From Thermococcus sp. (GTDB lineage: Archaea; Methanobacteriota_B; Thermococci; Thermococcales; Thermococcaceae): DNA of 41,078 nucleotides. Below the pieces are notes generated by a model that was not told where the DNA came from, searched no databases, and saw only the letters and a program-made list of their open reading frames with translations. Shown one piece after another: positions 11,409-14,273 of this stretch. Numbering within the stretch: position 1 is the first letter of the stretch; each line of letters begins with the position of its first letter. The stretch is from NCBI RefSeq assembly GCF_015523185.1, contig NZ_WAKV01000062.1, positions 1 to 41,078 on the forward strand, read 5' to 3'. A program made the translations under genes and the position numbers.

Positions 11409-12599
11409 ATGAAAGAGTTCAAGCGCCTCACGCCTTACAGGGAAGCCCTGAATTTGCTGTTAAAGGATTTGACCGAGATTAGCGAGTTTGAAGAAGTCCC
11501 CCTGGATGATGCCCTTGGACGGGTTCTTGCAGAGGACATAGTCTCGCCAATAGACAGCCCGCCCTTCAACAGGTCGGCCGTTGACGGCTACGCCCTTCGC
11601 GCGGAGGACACGTTTCCAGCCAGGGAATACAACCCGGTCGAGCTTAAGGTAATAGATGAGATTACTGCCGGTGAAGAGAGTGGCGCTAAGGTCGAGTCCG
11701 GAACGGCGGTAAAGCTCATGACGGGCTCGAAGATACCAGAGGGTGCCAACGCCGTTCTCATGCAGGAGATGGCCGAGCGTGAAGGAAACGTTATAAAGGT
11801 CCTTCGCCCCATTGCGCCAGGCCAGAATGTTGCCTTCGCCGGAGAAGACGTTAAGAAGGGGGAGGTAATCCTTAGAAGGGGACATGTTCTAAGGCCCCAG
11901 GATTTGGCCCTGCTCAAGAGTGTGGGCTTCAGAAGGGTGAAAGTTAAGAGAAAGCCCCGCGTTGGGATAATCATCACAGGAAGTGAGCTCATAGAAGAAT
12001 TCAACGAAGAGGCGCTGAAGTCGGGCAAAATCCTTGAGAGCAACTCCATAATGCTTAAGGGTCTTGTGAAGCAATACTTCGGCGAACCCCTCCTTTACGG
12101 TGTCGTTCCGGACGATGAAGACCCGATACGGGAAGCAATCGAGAGGGCCAAGATGGAAAACGACCTCGTCCTCGTTACGGGCGGTTCCGCCTTCGGCGAC
12201 AGGGACTTTGCCCACCGCTTTGTCAGGTTGCTCTTCCACGGGACTACCATAAAGCCCGGAAGGCCAATAGGCTACGGTGAGGGAGTCTTCATAATGAGCG
12301 GTTACCCCGTGGCCGTCTTCGCCCAGTTCCACCTCTATGTCAAGCACGCTTTGACCAAGCTCGTCGGTGCTAAAAACTATGGGGCTCGCGTTAGGGCGAA
12401 GCTAACCGACAGGGTACCGAGCCAGCTTGGGAGATATGAGTTCGTCAAGGTCTGGTACGAGAACGGTGCGGCGAGACCCATTAAGAAAAAGGGAAGCGGA
12501 ATAATAAGTTCACTTGTGGAGAGCAACGGCTACATAGAAATTCCAGAGGACAGTGAAGGTTACCTTGAGGGAGAAGAGGTTTGGGTGACCCTATACTAA
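11409..12599 (+). CDS. moeA: Molybdopterin molybdenumtransferase MoeA
   Basis: The 396-residue protein inserts the metal into adenylylated molybdopterin. Recognisable are FNRSAVDGYALRAEDTF, the MTGSKIPEGANAVLMQE stretch, the MoaB-like domain with ITGSELIEE and LVTGGSAFGDRDF, and the C-terminal barrel. Length and domain order (linker, lid, MoaB-like, C-terminal) are standard. In the MoaB-like domain the usual GGxSxGxxD is here GGSAFGDRD, a mild variation. GGAGTGAA precedes the ATG at 11409. The stop overlaps a small minus-strand frame by four bases. Confidence 0.93.
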   Translation: MKEFKRLTPYREALNLLLKDLTEISEFEEVPLDDALGRVLAEDIVSPIDSPPFNRSAVDGYALRAEDTFPAREYNPVELKVIDEITAGEESGAKVESGTAVKLMTGSKIPEGANAVLMQEMAEREGNVIKVLRPIAPGQNVAFAGEDVKKGEVILRRGHVLRPQDLALLKSVGFRRVKVKRKPRVGIIITGSELIEEFNEEALKSGKILESNSIMLKGLVKQYFGEPLLYGVVPDDEDPIREAIERAKMENDLVLVTGGSAFGDRDFAHRFVRLLFHGTTIKPGRPIGYGEGVFIMSGYPVAVFAQFHLYVKHALTKLVGAKNYGARVRAKLTDRVPSQLGRYEFVKVWYENGAARPIKKKGSGIISSLVESNGYIEIPEDSEGYLEGEEVWVTLY

Positions 12600-12823
12600 A
12601 AGTCTCCTACCAACGCCCCGCTGTCTGGAATCTTTATAATCTCTCTAACATCCTCTGGAAGTTCATCAATAATTTTCAATTCCTTTTGGACAATTTCTTG
12701 AATTATCTCCATTGTCTCACGCTTTCTCTGTTCTAACACATCATAGACTGGATTATCTTTAAGCCAAGGTATAATTTCTTTAACATCCTGCTTTGGAGAG
12801 TTAATAAGACCACTCTCTGTCAT
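12596..12823 (-). CDS. Small hypothetical protein, AT-rich, possibly a remnant
   Basis: This frame encodes 75 residues, largely helical and charged (EQRKRETMEIIQEIVQKE). I do not recognise a family. Its DNA is clearly more AT-rich than the flanking moeA and guide RNA. There is no convincing ribosome binding site. A minus-strand ATATAAT at about 12839-12846 would sit roughly 20 bases upstream, so a leaderless transcript is conceivable. It ends four bases inside the 3' end of moeA. It could be a real small gene or the decayed end of an inserted gene. Confidence 0.35.
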   Translation of the reverse strand: MTESGLINSPKQDVKEIIPWLKDNPVYDVLEQRKRETMEIIQEIVQKELKIIDELPEDVREIIKIPDSGALVGDF

Positions 12824-12934
12824 AGCATAGCATTACCCATTATATTCTTTGGGTTAATAATCTTTTCTATTCTCCCGTTGGCACAACCATGGAATGTAAC
12901 TAAGTGGAACGTTAAGATGAAAATCGAAGAACAA

Positions 12935-13148
12935 TGTCGCCCGCCCGTAACTCCCGCCATCATCTCAGCCAGACGGCAGAATCAGCGGGCTAACCCAGGC
13001 GGGCGAGAAGTGTGCCCGGTCTGGGTTTCCCGCGGTCATTGCGCTCCGTAACGCGGAAGGCCCTCCCGCGGGGACCTCGCTGAGACCGGGCTGTAGCCCC
13101 CGCATCGCCCCCCGGTTCATTCTCCCCGGGGTCCTCGCGCGGGGGCAT
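12935..13148 (-). ncRNA. Three-hairpin H/ACA guide RNA
   Basis: A GC-rich, gene-free block reads on the minus strand as three consecutive H/ACA units. Each has a lower stem, an asymmetric pocket, an upper stem, a k-turn or k-loop and a following ACA. Unit I: stem 13139-13146 with 13096-13103, upper stem 13126-13131 with 13110-13115, ACA at 13094-13092. Unit II: stem 13083-13091 with 13014-13022, upper stem 13066-13072 with 13029-13035, ACA at 13013-13011. Unit III: stem 12998-13005 with 12938-12945, upper stem 12985-12989 with 12953-12957, ACA at 12937-12935. Unit III shows UGA facing GAUGAUG, a k-turn pattern. A TATA at 13168-13175 sets the 5' end near 13148. Such RNAs direct pseudouridylation with Cbf5, Nop10, Gar1 and L7Ae. 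Confidence 0.88.
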
Positions 13149-13164
13149 TTTTAGTTTGAAACCG

Positions 13165-13180
13165 CGGTTTATAAAACCTC
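13165..13180 (-). promoter_or_regulatory. TATA promoter of the H/ACA RNA
   Basis: The minus strand reads GAGGTTTTATAAACC. The TATA core (13168-13175) is about 23 bases upstream of the first base of hairpin I's lower stem, which fits archaeal spacing for a start near 13146-13148. The element overlaps the last bases of the DUF835 gene. Confidence 0.65.
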
Positions 13181-14273
13181 ACTCTAAGAGTTTTCTAAGC
13201 TGGTTGAAGAGGCGTTCCTCAATGCTATTTTTGTCTATAACCAATATCAGAGTTCCGCCCTTCACCATGACGATGTCTCTGAGCTTGGATAGAAACTTCA
13301 TGATAGAGTCCCATGAGTTGTACATGCTCAGGTATTCAAGGCAGTCAATTATTACCACACCTGGAATGCCCCTTCTTGAAGTTTCCTCAAGGTACTGAAA
13401 GGCTATCTCCGTCATCTTCGCTAGGTCCGTGGGGTTCAGAGTTCCTGATATGTTCTCCTTCCTGAAAGGAACGGCGGTTACAAAGTACGTTTTCCATCCC
13501 TTCCCAGCATACTTCAAATCCCTGAGAAACGCGAGAACAGGGGCATTTTCGAGTTTCTGCAACAGGGACTGGAATTCCTTTGGGCTGACTATAATCGTAC
13601 CGTGGTGTATTTTGGGCGCTTTGATTTCCCCACTTCCTTCCAAGAACTCCCTTGTGGAAGTCAGTCTGTACATTGAGTAGGCCATTGAAATTGTAAGAAT
13701 CGTTGAAAGGGTGAATCCTATTGGCAGGTACCATATATAGAGCCCAAAAATGGCTGCAGGTATTAGATGAAGACCAAAAAGGACAATACTCCAGTAGAGA
13801 ATCCTCGCCGGCCGTTTGTATATTTCCTCAATCGGCCTAAGTAAAAGCCCGCTCGCGAAGACGAATGCCCCGCTCACGCCTAAAGAAACTCCAGCCGTCA
13901 GGGCCCAGTCAGGATTTTCTGTGAGTCTGTAAACCAAGTAAACGAAGCAGTAGAATGTTGGAGCTATAATTCCCATGTTCTTCAAGGTGGAATGGGGGAT
14001 TGGAATTGACTCCTCCTCAAGAAGCTTTGTAGAGCCTACAAATATAAGGGCGGCGAAAACTGTGAGGGAGAGTTCGGCTACTCCGAGAAGGACCTGATTC
14101 TGGGAGGCTGATAGAACCACCATGACGAAGTCAGCAAGCCACGCCACTGAAAAGAACAGCGCGGATTTCCGCCTGTGTCTGAGGTAAATCCTCATTATCA
14201 GGGCGAAGGCCGTTAAGTCTGCCAGCATAACTAGGCTTCCGCTTACGAGGGGGATTATGTCATGTGGTTCCAT
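13179..14273 (-). CDS. Multi-pass membrane protein with C-terminal DUF835 domain
   Basis: The 364-residue protein starts with about seven hydrophobic helices (roughly residues 5-210) and ends in a cytosolic domain of about 130 residues. The latter matches DUF835: GTIIVSPKEF, a FVTAVPFRKENI segment, GVVIIDCLEYLSMYNSWDSIMKFL and GGTLILVIDKNSIEERLFNQLRK. DUF835 proteins are expanded in Thermococcales and look like a degenerate RecA/KaiC-type ATPase fold lacking a P-loop. The function is unknown; membrane signalling is a guess. The ATG at 14273 has AGGAGG seven bases upstream; an ATG at 14303 would add ten residues without a site. It overlaps the upstream adenylation-like gene by 14 bases. Confidence 0.8.
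   Translation of the reverse strand: MEPHDIIPLVSGSLVMLADLTAFALIMRIYLRHRRKSALFFSVAWLADFVMVVLSASQNQVLLGVAELSLTVFAALIFVGSTKLLEEESIPIPHSTLKNMGIIAPTFYCFVYLVYRLTENPDWALTAGVSLGVSGAFVFASGLLLRPIEEIYKRPARILYWSIVLFGLHLIPAAIFGLYIWYLPIGFTLSTILTISMAYSMYRLTSTREFLEGSGEIKAPKIHHGTIIVSPKEFQSLLQKLENAPVLAFLRDLKYAGKGWKTYFVTAVPFRKENISGTLNPTDLAKMTEIAFQYLEETSRRGIPGVVIIDCLEYLSMYNSWDSIMKFLSKLRDIVMVKGGTLILVIDKNSIEERLFNQLRKLLE

Follow-up and report, generated by a model that had tools for sequence, protein, structure and literature searches.

The closest described relatives of the RNA discussed here are the HgcG guides of the Thermococcales. HgcG, also known as Pab40 or Pf7, has been described as a series of three hairpin motifs (PMC2584109; also PMC4652768), and the published guide-target pairs for Pab40 are Pa40.1-L2588, Pa40.2-L1932 and Pa40.3-L2016 (PMC4652768). 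In vitro, the P. abyssi RNA directs modification at U2588; the homologue in T. kodakarensis bears the name Tko1, and the equivalent modified residue in that organism, Psi2592, requires Cbf5, Nop10 and Gar1 (PMC6138745). HgcG has furthermore been detected in the transcriptome of T. onnurineus (PMC5316973).

We analysed a stretch of 41,078 nucleotides of Thermococcus sp. DNA (hereafter the window), in which an earlier note had recognised, from the raw sequence alone, a guide RNA with three hairpins and an ACA box after each of them. The guide RNA proves to be real. Three-hairpin H/ACA RNAs are indeed rare, as that note had said (reviewed in PMC7991803), but the form was already on record for Pab40.

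Identity, layout and conservation of the RNA

The window RNA is the Thermococcus orthologue of the already described HgcG/Pab40, of which both the family and the three-hairpin form were known before. We regard it as almost certain that it is an HgcG (Pab40/Pf7/Tko1) orthologue serving as a three-motif H/ACA guide that is made from its own TATA promoter. The proposal of an H/ACA RNA was checked against the covariance models of Rfam, which returned RF00064 (HgcG, also Pab40 and Pf7) with 215.4 bits against a gathering threshold of 77. This is the sole Rfam match in the whole window; it runs over 12930-13204 of the minus strand (model positions 1-276) and takes in sequence upstream of the RNA. 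Pab91 (23.9 bits) and HgcE (19.8 bits) were rejected at this locus, both scoring far under threshold. The element itself, 13146-12935 of the minus strand, consists of three stem-pocket-stem units, each ending in ACA, and its features are as follows.

12935..13146, minus strand: HgcG/Pab40 RNA with three H/ACA motifs (RF00064)
13092..13146, minus strand: H/ACA motif 1; predicted target, the 23S U at P. abyssi 2588 (E. coli 2496)
13146-13139/13103-13096, minus strand: motif 1 lower stem, 8 bp, GCCCCCGC/GCGGGGGC, one U separating it from the ACA
13138-13133, minus strand: motif 1 5' guide, GCGAGG
13131-13126/13115-13110, minus strand: motif 1 upper stem, CCCCGG/CCGGGG, with the cap GGA...UGA
13108-13104, minus strand: motif 1 3' guide, GCGAU
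13094-13092, minus strand: motif 1 ACA
13011..13091, minus strand: H/ACA motif 2; best conserved candidate target, the 23S U at E. coli 2586
13091-13083/13022-13014, minus strand: motif 2 lower stem, 9 bp, GCCCGGUCU/AGACCGGGC, directly adjoined by the ACA
13082-13073, minus strand: motif 2 5' guide strand, CAGCGAGGUC
13072-13066/13035-13029, minus strand: motif 2 upper stem, CCCGCGG/CCGCGGG, with GA...UGA (K-turn)
13028-13023, minus strand: motif 2 3' guide, A-AACCC
13013-13011, minus strand: motif 2 ACA
12935..13005, minus strand: H/ACA motif 3; predicted target, the 23S U at P. abyssi 2016 (E. coli 1915, helix 69)
13005-12997/12946-12938, minus strand: motif 3 lower stem, 9 bp, CGCCCGCCU/GGGCGGGCG, directly adjoined by the ACA
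12996-12991, minus strand: motif 3 5' guide, GGGUUA
12989-12985/12957-12953, minus strand: motif 3 upper stem, CCCGC/GCGGG, one C fewer than in relatives
12951-12947, minus strand: motif 3 3' guide, GUUAC
12937-12935, minus strand: motif 3 ACA
13168..13176, minus strand: TATA box, TTTTATAAA, just past the stop codon of the upstream DUF835 gene
12914..12934, minus strand: T-rich stretch after the last ACA, TTGTTCTTCGATTTTCATCTT, read from the sequence

The positions of the three ACA boxes agree with those reported earlier, as do the lower stems, which had been put at 8-9 bp and are read here as 8, 9 and 9 bp. The spacing from ACA to pocket, previously given as about 14-16 nt, is reproduced by distances of 14, 15 and 14 nt between the ACA and the upper stem; all three motifs are hence of the archaeal H/ACA pattern, a hairpin with an internal pocket and an ANA box 14-16 nt from the upper stem. 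Each also has UGA on the 3' strand and GA opposite, which as a sequence signature only is that of a K-turn or K-loop. A GA stem of 10 bp fits motif 2 and, if an A.G mismatch is accepted at its closing position, motif 1; motif 3 of the window lacks a base that its counterparts have.

Conservation was followed in an alignment of 47 distinct Thermococcaceae orthologues with the three-hairpin structure. The covariation in the stems on which the earlier note had staked its reading is present, 97.7% of the tested pair cells being standard pairs. Double-sided changes occur at 14 pairs, distributed over six of the seven helices, and amount to 103 cells compared with 27.6 in shuffles; when partners are slid by one column, pairing falls to about 50%. 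The seventh helix, the apical stem of hairpin 2, gives evidence neither way because it is fully invariant. The bases of the guide pockets are invariant at all positions bar one. ACA1 and ACA2 do not vary, and ACA3 is ACA or AUA in relatives. The fold is also far more stable than dinucleotide shuffles of the same RNA (z = -4.66, with 0 of 200 as good). The reading as a three-hairpin H/ACA guide is supported by covariation, by the pocket-rRNA matches and by membership in RF00064.

HgcG is present in 55 of the 61 Thermococcaceae genomes sampled, including all 53 that are near complete (completeness of 90% or more, contamination of 5% or less); a search of plasmid records gave no match. One genome, G007, was taken to be P. 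abyssi because its HgcG match (382332-382604) sits on the coordinates printed for Pab40 (PMC4652768). A weak second match in the source genome is the H/ACA guide HgcE/Pab105 (RF00060; L067 498-621, contig C54) and not another copy of HgcG. Outside the Thermococcaceae, two further families of the class yielded sub-threshold matches, G098:C17:2699-2943 (62.7 bits) and G101:C18:20372-20612 (35.3 bits), which are possible divergent homologues.

Predicted targets in 23S rRNA

No 16S or 23S gene was found by searching the draft assembly of the source genome, though it is rated 97% complete, and the targets were therefore checked in relatives. In Thermococcus 23S rRNAs, hairpin 1 pairs 4+6 bp around UN at the site of P. 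abyssi L2588, and hairpin 3 pairs 5+6 bp around UN at the site of L2016; a 23S alignment places these positions at E. coli 2496 and 1915. All three published positions, L1932 included, show the same numbering offset of 26 nt from the match start in P. abyssi 23S. Shuffled guides equal the hairpin 1 match in 4-8% of trials and the hairpin 3 match in 2-3%, and taken alone these pairings are of moderate strength. They carry more weight because they fall on published targets and the guides are invariant. Hairpin 1 is listed with the U at P. abyssi 2588 as its predicted target, and hairpin 3 with the U of helix 69 at 2016. Among the 16S genes of relatives, no convincing target was found for any of the three hairpins.

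For hairpin 2, both stems drawn in RF00064 are contradicted by the alignment: in the local stem one pair fails in 40 of the 47 sequences, and in the second stem there are two such pairs, failing in 40 and 36. When the upper stem is instead drawn as CCCNCGG/CCGNGGG, 98.8% of cells are paired. The variable pair of this stem is found as G-C, A-U, U-G, G-U and C-G among the orthologues, and the stem sets GA opposite UGA in a K-turn-like arrangement.

Judged from complementarity, the most likely target of hairpin 2 is the U that corresponds to E. coli 2586, an assignment that we make with moderate confidence. Pairing of 5+4 bp, through invariant guide bases, is possible there in all 47 orthologues and extends to 7+4 bp in 33 of them, the window included. 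Shuffled guides reach the same score in 0.13% of trials, a figure that overstates the significance, this being one chosen frame among several. Confidence is limited to moderate because in this frame one A stays unpaired where the upper stem meets the guide, and because the 7-bp match would open the lower stem at a cost of two pairs. Haloarcula has a pseudouridine at the equivalent residue (2621), which had earlier been put forward as the target of the homologous hairpin; in P. abyssi its modification was not found (PMC2584109).

The published alternative, in which hairpin 2 guides the U at P. abyssi 1932 as in Pab40 and not the 2586 equivalent, appears doubtful for this RNA. In the 23S alignment this U corresponds to E. 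coli position 1816. Pa40.2-L1932 is among the models of experimentally tested P. abyssi pairs (PMC4652768), the guide of P. abyssi forms 6+8 bp at the site, and the site itself is unchanged in the four Thermococcus 23S genes that were compared. Against this, P. abyssi is the only one of the 47 orthologues with the full 6+8 bp; in the other 46 the 5' side of the guide stops after one pair, and the competing CCCNCGG/CCGNGGG stem, which covaries, uses the same bases. With 5+1 bp only, L1932 was rejected as the target of hairpin 2 of the window. The mismatch is no bar to membership in HgcG, because nearly all accepted orthologues fail it too; complementarity to L1932 characterises the P. abyssi member and forms no part of the Rfam family definition.

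A broader form of the 2586 assignment can be offered tentatively, as a serious possibility that falls short of probable: hairpin 2 of Thermococcus would fold as CCCNCGG/CCGNGGG and guide U2586 of the peptidyl-transferase centre, not L1932, the target having changed within the Thermococcaceae. If this is true, the novelty would reside only in the lineage-wide covariation and the lost L1932 pairing, the 2586 target having been proposed before (PMC2584109).

The base missing from hairpin 3, the promoter and the flanks

The hairpin structure stands as the earlier note had read it, with one correction: relative to the 46 other orthologues, hairpin 3 has lost a base from its upper stem in the window sequence. 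The absent C belongs between 12986 and 12985 of the minus strand, and the closest relative (L034, 97.8% identical) has it. The gap is possibly an error of assembly or sequencing. That hairpin 3 is truly one base shorter, and weakened, in the source organism we consider unlikely. The presence of the C in 46 of 46 other aligned sequences, L034 among them, and the deleterious effect of GA-stem length changes on activity (PMC4652768) would be in keeping with a weakened motif, but an error of one base in a draft assembly of 85 contigs is no less likely, and the guide bases and ACA of hairpin 3 are intact. A real loss would leave a shorter GA stem and may lower activity.

The promoter is conserved. 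Between the TATA box (13176-13168) and position 13146, the first base of the stem, lie about 22 nt, close to the figure of about 23 bases proposed previously, and 46 of the 47 orthologues have a TATA-like hexamer 26-31 nt upstream of the corresponding base. The flanking sequence diverges strongly among orthologues, the RNA and its TATA box being retained. The T-rich stretch at 12914..12934 is a possible transcription terminator; a scan for sigma-70 promoters and terminators yielded nothing of use for an archaeon. Downstream of the RNA, at 12596-12823 on the minus strand, there is an open reading frame of 75 aa with no Pfam match, a possible gene.

It might be supposed, from a TATA box that begins directly past the stop codon of the DUF835 gene, that the locus is a GC-rich structured element other than a guide, for example a structure in the 3' UTR of that gene or a terminator array, but this is exceedingly improbable: the RNA and TATA box persist while the flanks differ, the pockets are invariant and the stems covary in the 47 orthologues, and the RF00064 match together with the pocket-rRNA matches refutes it.

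Proposed action and comparison with described guides

By analogy with the published relatives, the HgcG orthologue of the window would be transcribed from its own TATA promoter as a three-motif RNA, each hairpin of which would bind Cbf5, Nop10, Gar1 and L7Ae. The internal pocket would then pair with 23S rRNA on either side of an unpaired UN, and Cbf5 would isomerise the unpaired U to pseudouridine. The residues so modified would be P. abyssi 2588 (E. coli 2496) for hairpin 1, 2016 (1915) for hairpin 3 and the E. coli 2586 equivalent for hairpin 2. The RNA adds a further member to a family whose activity in vitro has already been published. The only useful addition made here concerns hairpin 2, for which neither the structure drawn in Rfam nor the published target suits most of the family; both could be revised.

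The RNA resembles HgcG (Pab40/Pf7/Tko1, RF00064) in having three H/ACA motifs in the same order, with the same ACA boxes and its own TATA promoter, and the pockets of hairpins 1 and 3 are the same. It differs from the Pyrococcus members, in which the 5' pocket of hairpin 1 is longer (AAGCGAGG, compared with GCGAGG in Thermococcus), and also in that the apical part of hairpin 2 is altered and the L1932 pairing is incomplete; hairpin 3 of the window is one base shorter. HgcE (Pab105, RF00060), HgcF (Pab35) and Pab91 are further H/ACA guides of the Thermococcales, and Pab35 likewise has three motifs (PMC4652768), but their pockets and targets are others than those of the window RNA. Homologues of hairpin 3 (E. 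coli 1915) and of hairpin 2 have also been published, namely Afu4.3 of Archaeoglobus and the halobacterial hairpins HP1 and HP2 (PMC4652768, PMC2584109).
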